Under the pieces are notes generated by a model. That model did no database searches, was not told where the DNA came from, and saw only the letters and a program-made list of their open reading frames with translations. A stretch of 64,000 bases of DNA from Acidobacteria bacterium RIFCSPLOWO2_02_FULL_65_29 (GTDB taxonomy: Bacteria; Acidobacteriota; Vicinamibacteria; Vicinamibacterales; CAVVIG01). Positions 7,342 to 63,943 of the stretch are shown here, in pieces. Each line of letters starts with the position of its first letter. Within the stretch, counting starts at the first letter, position 1. The stretch covers positions 75,111 through 139,110 of the forward strand of contig MEKT01000191.1 in NCBI GenBank assembly GCA_001767435.1, in the 5' to 3' direction. Position numbers and translations under genes: made by a program.

Positions 7342-7347
7342 CCCCTT

Positions 7348-7379
7348 CTGTAATCCTGCAATTCTGCCATTCTGCAATG
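7348..7379. repeat. Octamer word array (CTGCAATT type)
   Basis: Four 8-nt words are in exact register: CTGTAATC, CTGCAATT, CTGCCATT and CTGCAATG. They lie between divIVA and the DUF167 gene. The same vocabulary returns at 25637-25771. Confidence 0.7.
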
Positions 7380-8752: not shown

Positions 8753-8756
8753 CGGA

Positions 8757-8873
8757 AGCTCTCAGCTATCGGCTCTCAGCTTTCAGCTATTGGCTATCGG
8801 TTATCAGCTCGACTCGGTTCGCTCTCAGGTGCTCGCCGAAAGCTGAGGGCCGACAGCTGATAGCTGATAGCTA
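8757..8873. repeat. Inverted heptamer word array (AGCTATC/AGCTGAT vocabulary)
   Basis: The left half repeats CAGCTAT, CGGCTCT and CAGCTTT; the right half repeats AGCTGAT and AGCTGAG, which are the reverse complements. The array fills the whole lepA-lepB spacer and contributes the TAG stop codon of lepA (8871-8873). Confidence 0.75.
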
Positions 8874-10679
8874 CTCCGTTTCAGTTCCCATCTTCAACAC
8901 AGCCAGGAAGGCCTCCTGCGGAATCTCGACCTTGCCGACGCGCTTCATCCGCTTCTTGCCTTCTTTCTGCTTCTCGAGCAGCTTCCGCTTGCGGGTGATG
9001 TCGCCACCATAGCACTTGGCGAGGACGTTCTTGCGCATCGCCTTCACGGATTCTCGCGCAATGATGCGGCCGCCGATGGCCGCCTGAATGGCCACCTCGA
9101 ACATCTGCCGGGGGATCAGCTCCCGCATCTTCGACGCCAGCGCCCGGCCGCGCTCGTAGGCCGTGTCACGGTGGACGATGATCGACAAGGCGTCCACCGG
9201 ATCGCCGTTCACCAGAATGTCGAGCTTGACCAGAGGCGACGGCCAGTACCCGGTCACATGATAGTCGAGCGATGCGTACCCGCGAGAGAGCGTCTTCAGC
9301 TTGTCGTAAAAGTCGAGCACGACCTCGTTGAATGGGAGCTCGTAGGTGATCAACACCCGGTCCGACGCCAGGTACTCCAGCGTCTTCTGGACGCCGCGTT
9401 TGTCCTGGCAGAGCTGGAGGAGCGCGCCGACGTGCTCGGCGGGCGTCAGAATCATGGCCGTGATGACCGGTTCCTCGATCACTTTGATCCGCCCGGCGTC
9501 GGGCAGCTTGGCGGGGCTGTCGATCTCCTGCACCTCGTCGTCCGTTGTGGTCACCCGATAGAGCACGCCAGGCGCCGTCGTGACCAGGTCCTGATCGAAC
9601 TCGCGCTCGAGCCGCTCCTGCACGATTTCCATGTGCAGCAGCCCGAGAAATCCGCACCGGAACCCGAACCCCAGCGCGACCGACGTCTCCGGTTCGTAGA
9701 AGAACGACGCGTCGTTCAGGCGCAGCTTCTCGAGCGCGTCCCGCAGCTCCGAATACTTGTGCCCTTCGACCGGATACAACCCGGCAAACACCATCGGCTT
9801 CAATTCCTTGAAGCCTGGAAACGGCTCCAATGCCGGCCGCGCCGCCTCCGTGATCGTGTCGCCGATCTTCGCATCGCTGATCTTCTTGATATTGGCAACG
9901 AGGAAGCCGACCTCGCCGACGCCCAGTTCCTCCGCCACCACGGCCTTCGGCGTGAAGATACCGACCTGCTCGGCGTCGTAGTCCTGCCCCTCCGCCATCA
10001 GCCTGATGCGCATGCCAGGGCGAAGCGTCCCGTCGATCACGCGGACGACGACGACCACGCCTCGATAGGGGTCGTACCGTGAGTCGAAGATGAGCGCCTT
10101 GAGCGGCGCGTCGGGATTCCCGGCCGGGGGCGGCAGCCGCGCGACGATGGCCTCGAGAATCTCCGGGACGCCGGTGCCCATCTTGGCGCTGGCGAGCATG
10201 GCACGGGAACCATCGAGGCCGATGATGTCCGAGATCTGACGGCGCGCCTCTTCCGGCTGCGCGCCCGGCAGGTCGATCTTGTTGATGACGGGGATGATCT
10301 CCAGACCGTTCTCGACGGCGAGGTACGCGTTGGCCAGCGTCTGCGCCTCGACGCCCTGCGAGGCGTCCACCAGCAGCAGTGCCCCTTCGCACGCCGCGAG
10401 CGACCTGGTCACTTCGTACGAAAAATCGACGTGCCCCGGCGTGTCGATCAGGTTGAGGACGTACGGCTCGCCAGCCTTCGAGGTGTAGTTCAGCCGCACC
10501 GGATGCGCCTTGATGGTAATCCCGCGCTCGCGCTCGAGATCCATGGCATCGAGGACCTGGGCTTCCATCTCCCGCGCCTGCAGGGCGCCGGTCAGTTCGA
10601 GGAAACGGTCGGCGAGCGTCGACTTGCCATGGTCGATGTGCGCGATGACCGAGAAGTTACGGATGCGCTGGGGATCCAC
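8871..10679 (-). CDS. lepA: Elongation factor 4 (LepA), ribosomal back-translocase GTPase
   Basis: The 602-residue GTPase has G1 [13 protein letters not shown] at residues 13-25, switch [18 protein letters not shown], domain II, and the LepA-specific C-terminal domain ending in a basic tail ([20 protein letters not shown]). LepA acts on translating ribosomes under stress and in initiation or biogenesis. The start is GTG 10679 ([14 protein letters not shown]). The length matches the family (about 600). lepA-lepB adjacency is widely conserved, including in E. coli. Confidence 0.98.
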
Positions 10680-19377: not shown

Positions 19378-21093
19378 ATGTCCATTGAAGAGAAGTACGA
19401 CGAAGTACGGCAGCTGATCAACATCGGTAAGGAAAAAGGCTACCTGCTGTACGACGAGGTCAACGAGCTGCTGCCTGCCGAGATCACCTCGTCGGACGAG
19501 CTCGACGACCTGTTCAACACGTTCGGCAGCGCGGGCATCGAGGTCATCGATTCGGACCAGAAGTACCTGCGCGACGAGAAGACCATCGACCGCACGGCCG
19601 AGGGCGCCGAGGAGCTCGAGCTCGACCTGACGCCGGGCGCGCTCGACAAGACCAACGATCCGGTCCGGATGTACCTCCGCGAAATGGGCACGGTGCCGCT
19701 GCTCACCCGCGAGGGCGAGGTGGAGATCGCCCGGCGCATCGAGCGCGGGAAACTGGCCGTCATCAAGTCGATCTCGCGCACGCCGCTCGTGGCCAAGAAG
19801 GTCATCCTGCTCGGCGACCAGCTGAGGACCGGCGACCGCACGATTCGCGAGCTGGTGATCTTCAACGACGAGGAAATCACCGACGAGCGCATCGCCGAGC
19901 GCTCGCGGCAGGTGCAGAAGCAGATCGACGCCGTGCGCAAGGCGCGTGAAAACTCCGAGAAGTTCGAGCTGAAGCTCGCCGACACGCCCCGCGGCGCCAC
20001 GACCCGCGACAAGCGCAAGTACCGCCGGGCGCGGTGGGCGGCCATGCGCGCGCGGATCGAGCTGTCGCAGCGCATTCGCGAGATCGAGTTCACCGAGTCG
20101 GTCAAGCGCCGCCTCATCGAGGAGATGAAGGAAGCCGTCGAGAGCGTCAGGTCGGTGCAGCGCGAGATCGAGGCCATCGACCGGCTGCTCAACCCAAAGA
20201 ACCGGAAGCAACGGCTGCGCGAGGAGGACAAGAAGAACCTCCTGAAGCAGATCAAGGACCAGCGCGTCAAGCTCAAGGCGATGACCGACACGCTCGAGCA
20301 GGAGCCGACCCAGCTGAAGCGGACGCTCGACACGATTATCCGCGGCGAGTGGCAGGCCGAGCAGGCCAAGAAGGAGCTGGTCGAGGCCAACCTGCGCCTC
20401 GTCGTCTCGATCGCCAAGAAGTACACGAACCGCGGCCTGCAGTTCCTCGACCTGATTCAGGAGGGCAACATCGGGCTCATGAAGGCGGTCGACAAGTTCG
20501 AGTACCGCCGCGGCTACAAGTTCTCGACGTATGCGACGTGGTGGATTCGCCAGGCCATCACGCGCGCGATTGCGGACCAGGCGCGGACGATCCGCATTCC
20601 GGTCCACATGATCGAGACGATCAACAAGCTCATCCGCACCTCCCGCGCGCTCGTCCAGGAGCTCGGCCGCGAGCCAACCTCCGAGGAGATCGCCAAGCGG
20701 ATGGACATCCCCGTCAGCAAGGTCCGCAAGGTCCTGAAAATCGCGCAGGAGCCGATCTCGCTCGAGACGCCGATCGGGGAAGAGGAAGATTCGCATCTTG
20801 GCGACTTCATCGAGGACCGCCAGGTCGTGTCGCCGGCCGAAGCGGTGATCAACCTCAACCTGAAGGAGCAGACCGAGTCGGTCCTGAAGACCCTGACACC
20901 ACGGGAAGAGAAGGTCATCAAGATGAGGTTCGGCGTCGGTGATGGAAGCGAGCATACGCTCGAAGAAGTGGGTCAGAGCTTTGCCGTCACGCGCGAGCGC
21001 ATCCGGCAGATCGAGGCCAAGGCGCTGCGGAAGCTGCGCCATCCGTCCCGGTCGCGGAAGCTGCGCGCGTTTCTCGAGGGAAGGACTTCGTAG
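19378..21093 (+). CDS. rpoD: Primary sigma factor (sigma-70, RpoD)
   Basis: The 571-residue product has all sigma-70 regions: region 1.1 (residues 1-75), region 1.2 ([20 protein letters not shown]), a non-conserved helical insert around 150-310, and region 2 ([37 protein letters not shown]). Region 3 ([20 protein letters not shown]) and region 4 with its helix-turn-helix ([20 protein letters not shown]) follow. It directs RNA polymerase to housekeeping promoters such as the one before mraZ here. Its TAG stop is the first three bases of a heptamer array. Confidence 0.98.
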
Positions 21094-21157
21094 TCGCGAG
21101 TCGATAGTCGTTAGTCGCAAATCGGACTAGCGACTATCGACCAACGACTATAGACTC
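21091..21157. repeat. Inverted heptamer word array (TAGTCGN vocabulary)
   Basis: The left arm reads TAGTCGC, GAGTCGA, TAGTCGT, TAGTCGC in exact 7-nt register, starting on the rpoD stop codon. The right arm is built from the reverse-complement words (GACTATC, AACGACT, ATAGACT). The loop is about 8 nt. TATAGA at 21149-21154 could be a -10 for the tRNA that starts at 21164. Confidence 0.8.
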
Positions 21158-48154: not shown

Positions 48155-48239
48155 CGAACGTCGAATGTGCGCCGTCGAACACCGAGAACGTCGAACGTAG
48201 AGAACGTCGAACGCAGAACGTAGAACACAGAACGTAGAG
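48155..48239. repeat. Heptamer word array (GAACGTC/GAACGTA)
   Basis: GAACGTC, GAACGTA, GAACGCA and GAACACA units are mixed with GAGAACGTC nonamers (7+2), all direct. It starts right after the DegT stop codon. The following gene has its own GGAGG Shine-Dalgarno (48244-48248) outside the array. Confidence 0.8.
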
Positions 48240-48256
48240 CGACGGAGGTCGATACT

Positions 48257-49219
48257 GTGCGAGCACTGATCACCGGCGGCGCCGGCTTCATCGGATCTCA
48301 CCTGTCGGAGGCGCTCCTCGACGCGGGCCACCACGTGCTCGTCCTGGACAATCTGTCCACCGGATCGATCGACAACATCTCGCATCTGAAGGGCCAGCCG
48401 CGCTTCGAGTACTTCATCGACTCGGTCGACAACGAGCCGCTGCTTGCCGAGCTCGTCGATCGAAGTGACGTCGTGTTTCACCTCGCCGCCGCGGTCGGGG
48501 TCAAGTTGATCGTCGAGCAGCCCGTGCACACGATCGAGACCAACGTGCACGGCACCGAAGTCGTGCTCAAACACGCGAACAAGAAGAAAAAGCTCGTCAT
48601 CATCGCCTCGACCTCGGAGGTCTACGGCAAGAGCACGGATGTGCCGTTCCGCGAGGACTCCGATCTCGTGCTCGGCCCCACGCCCAAGCATCGCTGGGCG
48701 TACGCCTGCAGCAAGGCCATCGACGAGTTCCTCGCGCTGGCCTACTGGAAGGAACGGAAGCTGCCGGTCATCATCGTGCGGTTCTTCAACACGGTGGGGC
48801 CGCGCCAGACCGGACAGTACGGGATGGTGATTCCGAACTTCGTCTGCCAGGCCCTGGCGAACCAGCCGATCACGGTATTCGGCGACGGCACGCAGTCGCG
48901 CGCCTTCGCCCACGTGCACGATGTGGTCGGCGCAGTGCTCAAGCTGGTCGGGGAGCCGGCGGCCGTTGGCCAGGTCATCAACATCGGTAATACGGAGGAG
49001 GTGTCGATGCGCGAGCTCGCCGAACGCGTCCGCGAACTGAGCGGGTCGACTTCGCCTGTCACCTTCGTCCCCTACGATCAGGCGTACGAGGCCGGCTTCG
49101 AAGACATGCCGAGGCGCGTGCCCGATCTGACCAAGGTCAAGGCCATGATTGGGTACGAGCCCAGGCACTCGCTCGACGACATCCTCGTGCAGGTGATCGA
49201 ATATTTCAGGAAGAAGTGA
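48257..49219 (+). CDS. UDP-glucuronate decarboxylase / UDP-glucose 4-epimerase-like SDR
   Basis: A 320-residue extended SDR with LITGGAGFIGSHLSEALLDA, STSEVYGKSTDVPF and an intact catalytic YXXXK (WAYACSKAIDEFL). NTVGPRQTGQYGMVIPNFV and the C-terminal FEDMPRRVPDLTKVKAMIG follow. The region resembles UDP-xylose synthases and bacterial 4-epimerases; substrate is undecided. GTG 48257 is supported by GGAGG 8 nt upstream. It belongs to the glycan cluster but is separated by a word array. Confidence 0.9.
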   Translation: MRALITGGAGFIGSHLSEALLDAGHHVLVLDNLSTGSIDNISHLKGQPRFEYFIDSVDNEPLLAELVDRSDVVFHLAAAVGVKLIVEQPVHTIETNVHGTEVVLKHANKKKKLVIIASTSEVYGKSTDVPFREDSDLVLGPTPKHRWAYACSKAIDEFLALAYWKERKLPVIIVRFFNTVGPRQTGQYGMVIPNFVCQALANQPITVFGDGTQSRAFAHVHDVVGAVLKLVGEPAAVGQVINIGNTEEVSMRELAERVRELSGSTSPVTFVPYDQAYEAGFEDMPRRVPDLTKVKAMIGYEPRHSLDDILVQVIEYFRKK

Positions 49220-49233
49220 CTCAGCCAGCGAAG

Positions 49234-49356
49234 TTTGACAGTCAACAGTTCACAGTTGACAGTTGCGGTACCTGTTAACTGTCGACTATCAACTGTCGAC
49301 TGGCGTGGCCGAGAGCCGACGGCTGAGAGCTGGAACCTGAGAGCTACCGCCCCGCA
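49234..49356. repeat. Two-vocabulary array (GACAGTT inverted arms, then AGCTGAG words)
   Basis: GACAGTC, CACAGTT and GACAGTT (49237-49264) face AACTGTC and GACTATC words (49276-49301), forming an inverted pair around GCGGTACC. AGCTGAG-type words follow (49314-49355). Both vocabularies recur at 50096-50234. Confidence 0.78.
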
Positions 49357-49363
49357 TCGGGCG

Positions 49364-49369
49364 TATACT
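49364..49369 (+). promoter_or_regulatory. Candidate -10 element (TATACT)
   Basis: TATACT ends 6 nt before the ATG at 49376, with no Shine-Dalgarno; a leaderless transcript is likely. Confidence 0.45.
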
Positions 49370-49375
49370 GGGTCC

Positions 49376-50089
49376 ATGAATCGCACGTTGATTCTCGGGG
49401 TCGTCACTGCCGCCGCGCTCGCCGCGGCGGCCCCGGCCCGCGCCGAGGTCCGTCTGAGCTTGCACGACGGCAAGGTCACGCTCAAAGCCACCAACGCCAC
49501 CGTCCGCGAGATTCTCGCCGAATGGGCCAAAGTTGGACAGGCGCGGATCATCAACGCCGAACGCATCGTCGGCGGCCCGGTGACGCTCGAGTTGACGGAC
49601 GTCGGCGAACGGCAGGCGCTCGACGTGCTGCTGCGATCGGTGGCCGGCTACATGGCCGCCCCCAGGCCGGCCGCGGCGCCCAACGCCTCACATTTCGACC
49701 GGATCTTGATTCTGGCGACGAGCACGCCTCCGCGCGCCGTCGCTGGGGCGCCAACGCCGCCCCCCTTCAACCCGCCGCCGCAGTTCAACCCGCCGCCGCA
49801 GTTCAATCAACCGCCGCAGTTCAATCAACCGCCTCCGCCCGACGAGGACCCTAACGACCCGAGGACCGCGGGTGGGCCCGGGGCGCGCGCGCCGATCTTC
49901 AACACGTTCCCGCAGCCGGTACCACCGGGCGGCCAGCCTGGATTCCCAGGCGGGCAGCCGGCCCCGCCCGTGCGAGGCCCCGCGGCGCCGGCCGCGGCCA
50001 GGCCAGGGCAGCTGCCCATCGGCGTCGCGACTCCGGGCATGATCGCACAGCCTCCGCCGCCACAGCCCGGGCAGAATCCGCAGGAGTGA
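49376..50089 (+). CDS. Secreted STN/secretin-N-like protein with Pro-rich repeats
   Basis: The 237-residue product has a signal peptide (residues 1-24, ending APARAE) and one small domain near 25-90 (VTLKATNATVREILAEWAKV, VTLELTDVGERQALDVLLRS) like the STN domain of secretins and TonB receptors. The rest is low-complexity Pro/Gln/Gly, with four FNPPPQ or FNQPPQ units encoded by near-identical 15-18 nt DNA repeats at 49766-49831. No secretin barrel follows, so it may act as a periplasmic adaptor. Function is unknown. Confidence 0.8.
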   Translation: MNRTLILGVVTAAALAAAAPARAEVRLSLHDGKVTLKATNATVREILAEWAKVGQARIINAERIVGGPVTLELTDVGERQALDVLLRSVAGYMAAPRPAAAPNASHFDRILILATSTPPRAVAGAPTPPPFNPPPQFNPPPQFNQPPQFNQPPPPDEDPNDPRTAGGPGARAPIFNTFPQPVPPGGQPGFPGGQPAPPVRGPAAPAAARPGQLPIGVATPGMIAQPPPPQPGQNPQE

Positions 50090-50095
50090 GCGATT

Positions 50096-50234
50096 CAGCT
50101 ATCGGCTATCAGCTATCAGCTCAGCGCTCGAGTAGTTGACAGGTCACAGTTGACAGTTCACAGTTCTGCCGACTGTCAACTGTTCGCTTTTCCGAAAGCA
50201 AGCTGAGAGCTGAAAGCTGACAGCTGAGAGCTAC
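50096..50234. repeat. Nested inverted heptamer array with two vocabularies
   Basis: The outer left arm (50096-50122) uses CAGCTAT and CGGCTAT. The outer right arm (50201-50233) uses AGCTGAG, AGCTGAA and AGCTGAC. Inside them lies a second inverted set: GTTGACA, GGTCACA and GTTCACA (50134-50165) against GACTGTC and AACTGTT (50171-50184). The array ends 2 nt before the yqeY ATG. Confidence 0.85.
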
Positions 50235-50236
50235 CT

Positions 50237-50686
50237 ATGTCATTGATAAACGACGTAAGTGCAGCTATCGCCGAAGCGATGCGCCGGAAGGACGCCGCCC
50301 GGCTGAGCGCGCTCAGGATGCTCAAGGCCGCGCTGATGAACCGCGAAGTCGAGAAGGCGCGCGCGCTCGACGAAGCCGAAGGGCTCCAGGTCGTCGCCAC
50401 GCTGGTCAAACAGCGCAAAGACTCCATCGAACAGTTCGGCAGCGCGGGCCGGCAGGACCTCGTCGACAAGGAGTCCGCGGAGCTGGCGCTGCTCGAATCC
50501 TATTTGCCGCCAGCGGCCGACCCGGCGCTGGTGGAGCGCGCGGTGGCCGAAGCCATCGCCGAAACGGGCGCGGCGTCCCCCAAGGATCTCGGCCGCGTGA
50601 TGAAGGCCGCGATGGCGAAGCTCGCCGGCCAGAACGTCGACGGCAAGACGGTCAACGGGGTCGCGCGCAAGAGACTTGGGGGATAG
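50237..50686 (+). CDS. YqeY/GatB-YqeY domain protein
   Basis: The 149-residue helical protein matches the YqeY family: SLINDVSAAIAEAMRRKDAA, RLSALRMLKAALMNREVEKA, QFGSAGRQDLVDKESAELAL, ESYLPPAADP and KDLGRVMKAAMAKLAG. YqeY resembles the tail domain of GatB, which presents mischarged tRNA to the amidotransferase; the role of the free domain is uncertain. No Shine-Dalgarno is visible beyond the array end. murJ overlaps its 3' end by 11 nt; in many bacteria yqeY sits near rpsU/dnaG instead. Confidence 0.92.
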   Translation: MSLINDVSAAIAEAMRRKDAARLSALRMLKAALMNREVEKARALDEAEGLQVVATLVKQRKDSIEQFGSAGRQDLVDKESAELALLESYLPPAADPALVERAVAEAIAETGAASPKDLGRVMKAAMAKLAGQNVDGKTVNGVARKRLGG

Positions 50687-55662: not shown

Positions 55663-57942
55663 GTGACCGCGCCCATTCGATCGGCGGCGGTGCTCGGTGC
55701 CGGCACGATGGGCGCGCAAATCGCCGCCCACCTCGCCAACGCCGGAGTCGCCGTGCGGCTGCTCGACCTCACCGCCGATGCCGCCCGCCAGGGCCTGAAA
55801 CGCGCGTCCGCGCTCAGGCCCGATCCGTTCTTCACGATGGATGCCGCGACACGCATCACGACGGGAGGATTCGATCAGGATCTGTCGAGCGTCCGCGATG
55901 CCGATTGGATCATCGAAGCCGTTGTCGAGCACGTCGACGTGAAACGAAGCCTCCTCACACGCGTCGACGCGGCACGCCGCCCCGGGAGCGTCGTCAGCTC
56001 GAACACGTCGGGCATCTCGATTGGAGGGCTGGCGGAAGGACGAAGCCTCGATTTTCGCCGGCATTGGCTCGGGACCCATTTCTTCAATCCACCGCGCTAC
56101 CTGAGGCTGTTGGAGATTGTTCCGACCCCGGAAACCGACCAGGCCATCGTGGAGCGCGTGTCGTGGTTCGCCGACCACCGCCTCGGCAAGGGCGTCGTCG
56201 TGGCCAAGGACACGCCGAATTTCATCGCGAACCATATCGGACTGTACGGCGTCGTCAAATCGCTCTGCGCGCTCGAGTCCGGCGAGCTCACCATCGAGGA
56301 AATCGACGCGATCACGGGGCCGGCGCTGGGCCGGCCCAAGAGCGCCACGTTTCGCACGATGGACATCGCCGGCATCGACGTGCTCGCGCTCGTGGCGCGC
56401 AACCTGACCGAGCGGCTGTCTGACGAAGAAGCGCGACGCGCGTTCACGCCACCGGCCCTTGTCTCCCGGCTCATCGAACGCGGATGGATCGGAGAAAAGG
56501 CCGGGCAGGGGTTCTATAAGAAGGTCGGCGTCGACATTCTCACCCTCGATCCCGGGAGCCTCGAGTATCGGCCGCGGCAGGCCGCCAGACTCCCCTCGCT
56601 CGAAGCCGTCCAATCGATCGCCGACCCGGGCGAGCGTCTGAAGACGCTGTTTCTCGGCAGCGACAAAGTGGGCGCGTTCCTTCGTGCCACGCTCGGACCG
56701 ATGCTCCTCTACACCGCACAGGTGGCCCCCTCGATCGCGCACTCGATAGACGACGTCGATCGCGCGATGCGGTGGGGTTTTGGCTGGGAGCTCGGACCGT
56801 TCGAGATCTGGGACGCCATCGGCGTCGATCGGGTGCTCGACGCAATCAAGCCGCCGGCGCGCCCACCGCTCGTCGAAGAGGTACTTGGCGCCGGGCGACA
56901 GACATTTCGAGACGGCGGCCTGCCGCCGGCCGCTCCGGGCCTGCAGATTCTGAAATCCGCGAAGGATCGTCAGCGGATCGTGAGAGCCAATCCCGGCGCA
57001 AGCCTCGTGGACCTGGGCGACGGCGTGCTGGCGATCGATCTGCATTCGAAGCTGAATACGATTGGCGGTGACACCGTGCAGATGCTTCGAGCCGGAGTCG
57101 AGGAAGCCACCGCCAACTTCGCGGCGCTCCTCGTCTGCACCGACGCTCCAGATTTTTCGGCGGGCGCGAACCTGATGCTCCTCTTGCTCGAGGCGAGGGA
57201 AGGCAACTGGGACGAGCTCGACCTCATGGTCCGGGCGTTCCAGGCAGCCACGCTCGGATTGCGTTACGCCGAAGTGCCTGCCGTGAGCTGTCCGGCCGGT
57301 CTGGCGCTCGCCGGAGGCTGCGAGATCGTCATACAGGCCGACCGTGTGCAAGCGGCCGCGGAAAGCTATATCGGCCTCGTCGAGGTCGGTGTGGGCCTGA
57401 TTCCGGCGGGTGGGGGCACGACCGAGATGCTGGCGCGCGCGACGGAGCGCGCGCCCGGCCGCCAGGCCGACCTGCTGCCGTTCGTGCAAACGGTGTTCGA
57501 GACCCTCGGGTTCGGCAAGGTGTCGACGAGCGCGCCCCACGCCCGTCAACTGGGCTATCTTCGCGACGTGGACGCGACCACGATGAACCGCGATCGCCTC
57601 GTGGCCGACGCCAAGGCGCTGGCGCTCGAGCGCGTCCGCGAAGGCTACCGTCCGCCGGCGCGCCGCACGGCCATCCCCGTCGGCGGCGAAGGCGTCTTGG
57701 CCGCGTTGAAGCTCGGCGTGCACCTGGCGTGGCGCGCGGGTCGCATTGGCGATCACGATGCGGTGGTCGGCCGCGCGCTGGCGCGCGTGCTGGCGGGTGG
57801 ATCGCTCCCGCACCAGACGACGGTCACGGAAGAGTATCTGCTCGACCTGGAACGCGAGGCGTTCCTGCAGCTTTGCGGCGAGCCAAAGACGCTCGAGCGG
57901 ATACAGTACACGTTGAAGACAGGGAAGATTCTCAGAAACTAG
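55663..57942 (+). CDS. 3-hydroxyacyl-CoA dehydrogenase/enoyl-CoA hydratase, FadN-like
   Basis: The N-terminal half has the NAD fold AAVLGAGTMGAQIAAHLANA and the dehydrogenase motifs SNTSGISIGGLAEG and GTHFFNPPRYLRLLEIV. The C-terminal half (from about 440) is a crotonase: DFSAGANLMLLLLEA (oxyanion loop), PAGLALAGGCEIV and GLVEVGVGLIPAGGGTTEML. The order dehydrogenase-then-hydratase and the 759 residues match Bacillus FadN rather than E. coli FadB. It performs steps 2 and 3 of beta-oxidation. It starts at GTG, 11 bp after the E1 gene. Confidence 0.93.
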   Translation: MTAPIRSAAVLGAGTMGAQIAAHLANAGVAVRLLDLTADAARQGLKRASALRPDPFFTMDAATRITTGGFDQDLSSVRDADWIIEAVVEHVDVKRSLLTRVDAARRPGSVVSSNTSGISIGGLAEGRSLDFRRHWLGTHFFNPPRYLRLLEIVPTPETDQAIVERVSWFADHRLGKGVVVAKDTPNFIANHIGLYGVVKSLCALESGELTIEEIDAITGPALGRPKSATFRTMDIAGIDVLALVARNLTERLSDEEARRAFTPPALVSRLIERGWIGEKAGQGFYKKVGVDILTLDPGSLEYRPRQAARLPSLEAVQSIADPGERLKTLFLGSDKVGAFLRATLGPMLLYTAQVAPSIAHSIDDVDRAMRWGFGWELGPFEIWDAIGVDRVLDAIKPPARPPLVEEVLGAGRQTFRDGGLPPAAPGLQILKSAKDRQRIVRANPGASLVDLGDGVLAIDLHSKLNTIGGDTVQMLRAGVEEATANFAALLVCTDAPDFSAGANLMLLLLEAREGNWDELDLMVRAFQAATLGLRYAEVPAVSCPAGLALAGGCEIVIQADRVQAAAESYIGLVEVGVGLIPAGGGTTEMLARATERAPGRQADLLPFVQTVFETLGFGKVSTSAPHARQLGYLRDVDATTMNRDRLVADAKALALERVREGYRPPARRTAIPVGGEGVLAALKLGVHLAWRAGRIGDHDAVVGRALARVLAGGSLPHQTTVTEEYLLDLEREAFLQLCGEPKTLERIQYTLKTGKILRN

Positions 57943-57974
57943 AAAGTTAAAAGTTAAAAGTTAAAAGTTAAGAA
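57943..57974. repeat. Heptamer array (GTTAAAA x3)
   Basis: GTTAAAA repeats in exact register from 57946, preceded by AAA and ending GTTAAG. It runs from the FadN-like gene's TAG stop to the next ATG, forming the entire spacer. Confidence 0.85.
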
Positions 57975-59421: not shown

Positions 59422-59440
59422 ATACGACGCGGCACGCGCA

Positions 59441-59500
59441 AGTCAACAGTTGACAGTTCACAGTCAACAGTGCTGTCAACTGTCGACTGTCAACTGTGGA
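59441..59500. repeat. Inverted heptamer array (GACAGTT vocabulary)
   Basis: GTCAACA, GTTGACA, GTTCACA and GTCAACA on the left face CTGTCAA, CTGTCGA and CTGTCAA on the right, with almost no loop. The vocabulary is the same as at 49234 and inside 50096-50234. Confidence 0.8.
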
Positions 59501-59528
59501 CTTTCTGCTGTTGTGGAGAAATGCAATC

Positions 59529-60707
59529 ATGCACGACGCAGTGATCGTTTCCGCCGTTCGGACACCGTCCGGAAAAGCCCCGAACGGCGTGTTCCGCGGG
59601 ACGCGGCCCGACGAGCTTGCGGCGACCGCCATCGCCGAAGCGCTCGCGCGCGCTCCCGGCATCGACCCCGCGGAGATCGATGACGTCATCCTCGGTTGCG
59701 CGATGCCGGAAGCCGAGCAGGGCATGAACGTGGCGCGCATCGCGAGTCTACGTGCCGGCATTCCGGTCGGCGCCTCGGCGGTCACGGTGAATCGCTTCTG
59801 TTCTTCGGGACTTCAGGCCATCGCCTACGCGGCCGAACGGGTCATGTCGGGTGGCGCGTCGGCGGTGGTCGCCGGAGGCACCGAATCGATGAGCCTCGTG
59901 CCGATGGGCGGGCACAAAATCGCACCGAACCCGACGCTGGTCGATCGGTACCCCGATGTGTATCTGAGCACCGGCCTCGTCGCCGAGAACCACGCGCGCG
60001 AATCGAGCATCTCCCGCGACGAGCAGGACGCCTTCGCGCTTCGCAGCCACCAGCGGGCGATTGCCGCGATCGACGCGGGGCGCTTTGCCGACGAGATCGT
60101 GCCAATGACCGCGCGGCTGATCGACGGGAACGGCGGCGGCCACCCGCACGCGACCGACGTGATCGTGTCGATAGACGAGGGCCCTCGCCGCGACACCTCG
60201 GCCGAGGCGCTCGCGAAGCTCCGGCCCGCGTTCCACGCGCGCGGCTCGGTCACGGCCGGCAACTCGTCGCAAACCAGCGATGGCGCGGCGGCTGTCGTCG
60301 TGACCTCCGCCGAGTTGGCACGCGCGCAGGGACTGACACCCCTCGGCCGCTTCGTGGTGTACGCCACGGCCGGCGTCGAGCCCGAGCGTTTCGGCATCGG
60401 GCCGGTGCCGGCGATACGGAAGGCGCTGAAGCGGTCGGGCTTGACGCTCGATCAGATGGACCTGGTCGAGCTCAACGAAGCCTTCGCCGCGCAGGTGCTC
60501 GCCTGCCTCAAGGAACTGCCGATCGATCCGGACCGCCTGAACGTCAACGGCGGCGCGATCGCGCTCGGTCACCCGCTGGGCTGCACAGGCGCCAAATTGA
60601 CGACGACGCTCCTGTACGAGATGAAACGCCGGAAGGCCCGCTACGGTTTGGTCACAATGTGCGTCGGCGGCGGGATGGGAGCGGCGGGGATTTTCGAGCG
60701 GACTTAG
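59529..60707 (+). CDS. Acetyl-CoA acyltransferase (thiolase)
   Basis: The last beta-oxidation step. The 392-residue product has the acylated Cys in TVNRFCSSGLQAIA, LVELNEAFAAQVLACL, the His loop GGAIALGHPLGCTGAKL and the terminal Cys in MCVGGGMGAAGIF. The ATG 59529 (MHDAVIVSAVRTP) fits FadA-like enzymes. It corresponds to fadA of the Bacillus fadNAE operon. Heptamer arrays lie on both sides. Confidence 0.96.
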   Translation: MHDAVIVSAVRTPSGKAPNGVFRGTRPDELAATAIAEALARAPGIDPAEIDDVILGCAMPEAEQGMNVARIASLRAGIPVGASAVTVNRFCSSGLQAIAYAAERVMSGGASAVVAGGTESMSLVPMGGHKIAPNPTLVDRYPDVYLSTGLVAENHARESSISRDEQDAFALRSHQRAIAAIDAGRFADEIVPMTARLIDGNGGGHPHATDVIVSIDEGPRRDTSAEALAKLRPAFHARGSVTAGNSSQTSDGAAAVVVTSAELARAQGLTPLGRFVVYATAGVEPERFGIGPVPAIRKALKRSGLTLDQMDLVELNEAFAAQVLACLKELPIDPDRLNVNGGAIALGHPLGCTGAKLTTTLLYEMKRRKARYGLVTMCVGGGMGAAGIFERT

Positions 60708-60753
60708 AAAGTTAGAAGTGAAAAGTGAAAAGTGAAAAGTGAAAAGTTAAAAG
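60708..60753. repeat. Six-unit heptamer array (GTGAAAA/GTTAAAA)
   Basis: Six units in exact register start at 60711: GTTAGAA, GTGAAAA four times, GTTAAAA. The last unit plus GGA creates the AAAAGGA ribosome binding site of the next gene. Confidence 0.88.
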
Positions 60754-60763
60754 GACAATACTC

Positions 60764-62578: not shown

Positions 62579-63193
62579 ATGCGCCGCGCATTTCTCGCCG
62601 CGCTCCTGATCCTCGCGTCGTCGGCCTGCCGCGTCGAGCCGCCGGGCGAAGAGGACTACGTCCAGCGGATCACCATCGCCCGCGCCGAAAAGGATGCGGC
62701 GCTCCAGAAACAATCAGAGCCCGTTCCCGCCGACAAGAAAGCCGAGCTGCTGCCGCTCGAGTACTACCCCATCGACCCGTCGTACAACGTCCCGGCAATC
62801 CTCAAACCGCCGAGCGACACCGAGACATTGCAGATGGGGTATTCGGACGGAGCGATCCGCGACGTGCGACGCCTCGGCACGCTCGAGTTCACGGTGAAGG
62901 GCCAGCCGTTCAAGCTCACCGCGTACCGGGAAGTCGCCAGCCCGGACGTGAACCACGTCTTCGTGCCGTTCGCCGATCTGACGAGCGGCGTCGACACATA
63001 TGCGGCCGGGCGCTACATCGACCTGCGCCGCACTGCGACCGGCTACTACGAGCTCGACTTCAACGTGGCCTACACCCCGAGCTGCTACTTCAGCCCGCTC
63101 TACTCCTGCCCCGTCACCCCGAAGGAGAATCGCCTGCCGATCGAGATTCAGGCGGGGGAAAAAATCAAGATAAAGTTAGAAGTGAAAAGTTGA
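62579..63193 (+). CDS. DUF1684-family lipoprotein
   Basis: The 204-residue protein begins with a lipoprotein signal (LLILASSACRVEPPG; Cys17 is the lipid site). Family features follow: LPLEYYPIDPSYNVPAILKP, AGRYIDLRRTATGYYELDFN and ENRLPIEIQAGEK. DUF1684 proteins are conserved in Acidobacteria and Bacteroidetes with unknown function. The last residues (LEVKS) and TGA stop are encoded by a GTTAGAA/GTGAAAA array, so the C-terminus may have been rewritten by the repeat. Confidence 0.85.
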   Translation: MRRAFLAALLILASSACRVEPPGEEDYVQRITIARAEKDAALQKQSEPVPADKKAELLPLEYYPIDPSYNVPAILKPPSDTETLQMGYSDGAIRDVRRLGTLEFTVKGQPFKLTAYREVASPDVNHVFVPFADLTSGVDTYAAGRYIDLRRTATGYYELDFNVAYTPSCYFSPLYSCPVTPKENRLPIEIQAGEKIKIKLEVKS

Positions 63194-63264
63194 AAGTTAA
63201 AAGGACACCGGCGAATTTCTCACTTTGACTTTTTTTGACTTTTCACTTTTCACTTTTAACTTTC
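63172..63264. repeat. Inverted heptamer array (GTTAAAA/GTGAAAA) around a T-rich centre
   Basis: The left arm has GTTAGAA, GTGAAAA, GTTGAAA and GTTAAAA (63175-63202). The right arm is the reverse complement vocabulary, CTTTTCA and CTTTTAACTTTC (63240-63264), after TTTGACTTTTTTTGAC. It spans the end of the DUF1684 gene and reaches the HAD gene start. Confidence 0.82.
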
Positions 63265-63265
63265 C

Positions 63266-63943
63266 ATGATCAGAGCTGTGGTCTTCGACTTCGACGGCGT
63301 GATCGCCGACAGCGAGCCGCTGCACTTTCGCGCCTACTCGGATGTCCTCATCGCGGCAGGTGTCGCGCTGACGGAAGCCGACTACTACGCCCGCTATCTG
63401 GGCTTCGACGATGCGGGCGCGTTCAGAGAGATTGCCGCCGACCGCGGCGTCGTGTGGAACGGGGCGCGCATCGGCGAGCTCGTTCGGCGCAAGGCGGAGC
63501 GGATGGAGGAGCTCGAGCGCGGCGCTTCAGTCCTGTTTCCCGGCGCAGAGGCCGCGATCCGCCGGCTCGCCGCCGTGTGTCCGCTGGCGATCGCCTCGGG
63601 CGCGCTGCGCGCCGAGATCGTCCGCGTCCTCGAGCGGGAGCGCTTGTCGGCGTACTTCTCAGCGCTCGTGGCCGCGGAAGATGCGTCCGCTGGCAAGCCG
63701 GCCCCAGACCCCTACCTGCGCGCGGTCGACCAGCTTCGGCGCTTCGTCGCCGGGCCGCTCGACGCCTCCGAGTGCGTGGCCGTCGAAGACTCGCGTTGGG
63801 GCCTCGAATCGGCCAGGGCCGCCGGTCTAAGGACCGTCGCCGTCACCCACACGTATCCGGCCGACCAGCTCGCCGGCATCGCCGACACGGTCATCTCGGG
63901 CCTGGGCCGCTTGACGGTGGAATTTCTGAGCAAGTTGGCTTAG
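63266..63943 (+). CDS. HAD-superfamily hydrolase, beta-phosphoglucomutase/phosphatase type
   Basis: The 225-residue HAD subfamily IA protein has motif I VVFDFDGVIADSEP (Asp8 nucleophile, Asp10), a helical cap (residues 17-85), motif II PLAIASGALR, Lys in DASAGKPAPDPYLRA and motif IV VAVEDSRWGLESARAAGL. It resembles sugar-phosphate phosphatases and beta-phosphoglucomutase. Nothing in the context names the substrate. There is no Shine-Dalgarno; the leader is a word array. The TAG stop is the beginning of the palindromic element at 63941. Confidence 0.93.
   Translation: MIRAVVFDFDGVIADSEPLHFRAYSDVLIAAGVALTEADYYARYLGFDDAGAFREIAADRGVVWNGARIGELVRRKAERMEELERGASVLFPGAEAAIRRLAAVCPLAIASGALRAEIVRVLERERLSAYFSALVAAEDASAGKPAPDPYLRAVDQLRRFVAGPLDASECVAVEDSRWGLESARAAGLRTVAVTHTYPADQLAGIADTVISGLGRLTVEFLSKLA

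Follow-up and report, generated by a model that had tools for sequence, protein, structure and literature searches.

The intergenic spacer at positions 50095-50232 of the window, the 64,000-nucleotide stretch of DNA analysed here, abuts a stop codon on one side and a start codon on the other and is built of two heptanucleotide vocabularies, with AGCTNTC arms (V1) outside and CAGTYNA arms (V2) inside. About a dozen such vocabularies exist in the source genome, and they share one rule in which arrays sit at gene borders and read inward. The best explanation is probably that they are intergenic heptad families of the LSSR/STRR kind, which change in length by slippage and spread between spacers.

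Anatomy of the nested spacer

A first-pass annotation had claimed that the two vocabularies are nested as one hairpin inside another. This order was confirmed in the sequence, and the arms were recovered independently by a tandem-repeat search and by an inverted-repeat search (Table 1); the inner right arm falls below the three-unit threshold of the array scan described below and was detected as an inverted repeat. The folding check proposed with that claim was run on both nucleic acids. As RNA, the region forms one long hairpin of -68.5 kcal/mol against -47.7 ± 4.0 kcal/mol for shuffled sequences (z -5.2, reached by 0 of 200 shuffles), and DNA folding gave the same concentric stem (z -4.5). 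This stem has six pairs and one mismatch per heptad, i.e., about one unpaired base in every seven. An Rfam covariance search returned no match at E up to 1, a terminator scan of 49100-50400 found no intrinsic terminator (a GC-rich stem followed by a U-tract), and a promoter scan found nothing. The spacer and yqeY are located upstream of murJ. Within the proline-rich ORF that precedes the spacer, an 18-base tandem repeat at 49755-49833 encodes PPQFNQ-type repeats.

The two vocabularies had also been reported side by side near 49234-49356, which was borne out: the order at 49233-49345 is V2+ V2- V1-, with a degenerate V1 array. The strongest short period of the window is 7, with 14 as its multiple, and further hairpins and lone arrays occupy other gaps. 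V4 arrays very frequently carry a terminal (A/G)AAGGAC, which at 60704-60758 is in Shine-Dalgarno position and elsewhere does not precede a start. An octamer array of TTCTGCAA, with period 8 and not 7, lies immediately after a gene at 7346-7378, and period 8 is raised genome-wide too.

Table 1. Heptad arrays, hairpins and neighbouring genes in the window.
Feature	Position	Strand	Remarks
V1 hairpin	8754-8875		occupies another intergenic gap
V3 hairpin (AGTCGNT)	21089-21156		begins within stop codon TAG
V10 array (GAACGTN)	48181-48238	+
V2 hairpin	49233-49305		+ arm 49233-49267, - arm 49267-49305
V1 array	49306-49345	-	minus arm only, right of and outside the V2 hairpin
ORF, proline-rich, secreted-looking protein	49376-50089	+	no Pfam family; upstream neighbour of nested spacer
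Outer left arm, V1 heptads AGCTNTC, TCAGCTATCGGCTATCAGCTATCAGCTCAGC	50095-50125	+	begins 6 bases past the upstream ORF stop codon
Inner left arm, V2 heptads CAGTYNA, AGTTGACAGGTCACAGTTGACAGTTCACAGTT	50134-50165	+	tandem- and inverted-repeat searches
Inner right arm, about two V2 heptads (reverse complement), GACTGTCAACTGTTC	50171-50185	-	inverted repeat I8/I9
Small separate hairpin GCTTTTCCGAAAGC	50186-50199		between inner and outer right arms; from folding
Outer right arm, V1 heptads (reverse complement GANAGCT), AGCTGAGAGCTGAAAGCTGACAGCTGAGAGCT	50201-50232	-	stops 4 bases short of the yqeY ATG
yqeY, YqeY family protein (PF09424)	50237-50686	+	downstream neighbour of nested spacer
Lone V4 array	57936-57974	+	occupies the whole gap between two genes
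V2 hairpin	59437-59506
Lone V4 array	60704-60758	+	overlaps stop codon, terminates in AAAAGGAC just ahead of the next start
V4 hairpin (RAAGTNA)	63169-63267

Vocabularies, polarity and gene borders across the genome

The source genome belongs to the Acidobacteriota (Vicinamibacterales), comprises 5.5 Mb in 239 contigs, and is the sole member of its genus among the genomes compared. Period 7 was the strongest short period in 0.82 Mb of this genome, and word clustering yielded more than ten heptad vocabularies. Scanning 1.71 Mb (31% of the genome) identified 400 heptad arrays of 11 vocabularies. Each vocabulary has one free base per heptad, and some also have one purine/pyrimidine choice; throughout the genome, AGCTNTC is free at its fifth base and CAGTYNA at its sixth, a property that the first-pass annotation had overlooked together with the number of vocabularies. 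A reversed-word control gave 183 matches against 240 kept arrays, a comparison that is not a clean null because the reversed words resemble other vocabularies of the genome. The reality of the arrays rests instead on the lag-7 excess and on the orientation tests.

To each vocabulary a strand sign was assigned arbitrarily and then kept fixed, and arrays at most 200 bases apart were treated as neighbours. Same-vocabulary neighbours were arranged as +- in 81 cases, ++ in 9, -- in 5 and -+ in none, while the corresponding counts for neighbours of different vocabularies were 21, 9, 11 and 4. As the sign is arbitrary yet constant everywhere once set, polarity belongs to the word itself. Among +- neighbours, 81 of 102 (79%) shared a vocabulary, compared with about 12.5% expected from vocabulary frequencies; the earlier proposal that each vocabulary pairs with itself thus holds throughout the scanned sequence, with strict facing of the arms. 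A single array makes up 149 of the 263 clusters. Stop-codon content was considered as a cause of the polarity, but judging from the words themselves it would not be a general one, since V1 and V5 words carry no stop in the inward reading.

Gene calls came from a home-made caller based on hexamers, which gave 1512 genes and a coding fraction of 90%. By these calls, 339 of the 400 arrays lie in gaps of at least 30 bases between genes, and the median distance between the outer array end and the gene border is 6 bases, single start codons being uncertain because of the caller (for yqeY it chose a later start than the ATG at 50237). Arrays of V3, V4, V6 and V7 often include the stop codon itself, e.g., TAG in TAGTCGTTAGTCG. 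Among lone arrays, the reading direction relative to the gene border is inward in 43 cases and outward in 15 (p = 0.0003), and gaps with three or more arrays nearly always contain all + arrays followed by all - arrays. Arrays were present in 32% of convergent gaps versus 13% of divergent gaps, a 2.5-fold difference (p = 3e-5).

Partner arms and nesting

Either copying or selected pairing of the two arms would make partners match better than strangers. Partner arms instead aligned less well, with a normalised local alignment score of 48.57 against 51.33 ± 0.66 when partners were permuted (0 of 500 permutations as low). Their free-base identity was 0.321 against 0.353 for arms of different loci (p = 0.008), a deficit that is uneven across vocabularies, with none in V4 and V6. 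The arms therefore give no sign of being inverted copies, as the first-pass annotation had held them to be, and the partner permutation rejects a mirror-copy origin. A first look had suggested correlated arm lengths within hairpins; no correlation was found (rho 0.02). Perfect palindromes assemble badly in metagenomes, and their loss in short-read assembly could contribute to the low matching of partner arms. Within an array, agreement of the free bases is higher between next-but-one units (0.459) than between adjacent units (0.406), which suggests duplication in 14-base steps.

In the 1.71 Mb scanned, all three gaps with two complete pairs were nested (window 50092, and C174:3541 and C27:52153 elsewhere in the genome), and no crossed or side-by-side complete pairs of different vocabularies were found in one gap. 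Three cases alone are not beyond chance. V1 lies outside V2 in nearly all gaps holding both, and nesting is largely what would be expected from the inward rule, given that V1 arrays fit more closely against gene borders. Nesting is real and requires no special event beyond the entry of a second vocabulary into a spacer.

Associated elements, enzymes and relatives

The end sequences of V4, V5 and V6 are conserved on both the outer and the inner side, V2 has a frequent outer end, and one version of V2 sits in a dispersed element about 145 bases long. Given the conserved ends of V4-V6 and this V2 element, the dispersal of defined pieces contributes to the spread of arrays. Copies of the V2 element, with V2 arms and the loop ATCGACGTCGATG, are 86-91% alike and lie at C27:49935, C28:12362, C173:9521, C42:29712 and C7:16119 of the source genome (G000). 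A second, palindromic and MITE-like element of about 100 bases (element Y), with the ends TGTGAAGAAATCGC and GCGATTTCTTCACA, is located at C173:14155-14267 and also on C27, C17, C91 and C162. It is found mostly within V1 or V7 heptad arrays, which it splits, suggesting that insertion into arrays occurs. A GC-rich multicopy element (element X, GTGGGGCTCCGCCCCACACCCCGGCTCGGTCGCTTGCGGGG...), often truncated or chimeric, is present at C30:20031, C134:5354 and C6:10250 with about 20 more matches.

The Y1 (REP-type) transposase (PF01797) was absent from the source genome, which is 97% complete, and the controls were positive. The single RVT_1 match of the genome (L190, on contig C152) is a reverse transcriptase that, judged from its sequence, looks like the group II intron type, and the RVT_1 search gave no sign of a telomerase-like or UG/DRT reverse transcriptase with a noncoding RNA template. 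DRT10 enzymes make tandem repeats (PMC12632851); the sole RVT_1 protein here is unlike them. Ku is present in the genome and also in relatives without V1 or V2 arrays.

The relatives compared are all metagenome-assembled. Of 27 family genomes, 9 contain V1 arrays and 3 contain V2 arrays. V2 is absent from two genomes with 187 and 374 V1 matches, respectively, and V1 is absent from a genome with 31 V2 matches; several genera have V1 but not V2, and another has V2 but not V1. The idea that the two vocabularies travel together thus did not survive the search of relatives, across which they occur separately. Some genera use the same or other heptad vocabularies and others have few or none, the other words including GAAGTAC, GCAGATT, AAAACTG and GGGATTN, where the 5' side is, by eye, mostly taken up by a single arm type. 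At the yqeY locus of the relatives, no AGCTNTC or CAGTYNA arrays were found, and two (L042 and L048) have unrelated heptads nearby. Because the relatives carry no V1 or V2 arrays at this locus, they present no intermediate state from which an order of insertion could be read.

Possible origins of the arrays

We infer that slippage and dispersal generated the arrays and that the hairpin arises mainly as a by-product. The spacer would then consist of two families of intergenic repeats, each present as two runs facing each other from both gene borders. Runs would lengthen and shorten by 7 and 14 bases through slippage or unequal exchange, and a vocabulary could move between spacers by copying, either through recombination or through element dispersal. 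Each vocabulary would keep a fixed polarity, with its outer end at the gene border and reading inward, so that a hairpin results from two runs of the same vocabulary, and any second vocabulary in the spacer becomes nested. The hairpin would be tolerated at gene ends and may act there as a transcript-end hairpin. Slippage alone leaves unexplained both the fixed polarity and the presence of the same vocabulary at both borders six times over chance, and the conserved ends of V4-V6 resemble a defined element more than a product of slippage. The low matching of partner arms may also be in part an assembly artefact, which limits its weight for this account.

The strong predicted folding, the enrichment at convergent gene ends and the depletion between divergent genes would also fit a hairpin selected at transcript ends, i.e., a long RNA stem with a mismatch at every seventh base that ends or protects transcripts and escapes RNase III, much as REP hairpins do. 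Partner arms being mismatched at the free base more than random is consistent with this as well. However, partners match less than arms from other loci and show no covariation, the many lone arrays cannot form a stem, the spacer has neither a terminator-like site nor an Rfam match, and damage to promoters would explain the divergent-gap depletion equally well; we consider such selection unlikely. Insertion of whole heptad-stem hairpins between genes, with a second one landing in the loop of the first, is close to the view of the first-pass annotation and would account for the conserved ends and loops of V4-V6, the dispersed V2 element and the presence of element Y inside V1 and V7 arrays. Lone arms follow the inward rule too, though, some pairs have a different vocabulary in each arm, no gap was seen to hold two complete hairpins of different vocabularies side by side, and the genome has no Y1 transposase, which makes insertion of this kind somewhat less probable still.

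Facing polarity, independent arms and centrally placed newer arrays, as in head-to-head telomere fusions, are what would be predicted if each 3' end at an intergenic break were extended with the same heptad and the ends then joined, with the inner vocabulary added when the tip of the stem broke later. The 81:0 polarity, the 21:4 excess of facing mixed-vocabulary pairs, the independence of arms and of arm lengths, the +..+-..- order of nearly all multi-array gaps and the presence of Ku agree with this prediction. Against it, the only reverse transcriptase looks like the group II intron type and no telomerase-like templating enzyme is known here, Ku also occurs in relatives without V1 or V2 arrays, and the conserved tip sequences of V4-V6 would be unexpected; we regard accretion at breaks as improbable. 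It is more doubtful yet that 3' ends at intergenic chromosome breaks were extended with genome-specific heptads and joined such that nested arrays form a layered record of break repair; if true, this would be a prokaryotic parallel to interstitial telomere fusions.

Comparison with known repeats

Intergenic heptad families subject to slippage and spread, the reading we favour, have several described counterparts. Like cyanobacterial STRR and bacterial LSSR, which are intergenic heptanucleotide arrays, the repeats here are tandem 7-nt units, with lag 7 the strongest, and are intergenic genome-wide; the portions of that literature drawn on here describe no polarity rule or nesting. The closest match is with the GGGNATC heptads of Xanthomonas (published as GGGANTN, with free positions 5 and 7), whose Nostoc counterpart is GGGGAYT (Rehm et al. 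2015, PMC4692102). According to the parts of that paper used here, the Xanthomonas heptads are intergenic, form 70 and 75 convergent inverted pairs per genome, lie far closer to the ORF on their 5' side than to the one on their 3' side, in some cases overlap stop codons and are under-represented between divergent genes. The arrays described above have the same kind of free position and agree in intergenic placement, stop-codon overlap and divergent depletion, as well as in convergent pairing (81 +- against 0 -+) and in 5' proximity (43 inward and 15 outward lone arrays). In contrast, the same parts of the paper describe a single vocabulary per genome that forms G-quadruplexes and make no mention of two-vocabulary nesting, whereas at least 11 vocabularies are present here and nesting is seen. 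Most of these vocabularies are not rich in G, and quadruplexes therefore cannot be what the placement rule depends on; AGCTNTC and CAGTYNA have no G-tracts and thus lack quadruplex units of the Xanthomonas type.

TAACTGA repeats of marine Beggiatoaceae, Cyanobacteria and Bacteroidetes (MacGregor 2015, PMC4679880) are likewise short intergenic heptad arrays at gene borders in scattered lineages, with strains differing by 7-nt indels, but comprise a single vocabulary found mainly upstream of starts, in 169 direct-repeat sets and one indirect set. Heptad and octamer sites of Geobacter metallireducens (PMC2700814) are similar in being tandem short repeats paired on opposite strands at variable distance, and differ in their sequences, in their number (16-48 sequences per class) and in being possible regulator binding sites. 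REP/BIME sequences are also intergenic palindromic repeats, but the stem here is composed of tandem heptads and the Y1 transposase is absent.

Earlier descriptions of heptads have each dealt with a single vocabulary, and the explanations offered were quadruplexes, regulators or polymerase slippage. What is new here is that many unrelated vocabularies in one genome follow one polarity rule and are sometimes nested, a richer variant of known repeats. That about a dozen unrelated words share the polarity and border rule indicates that the rule is independent of word sequence. Explanations tied to a particular word, such as quadruplex formation, are weakened by this, and the process behind the arrays becomes testable.
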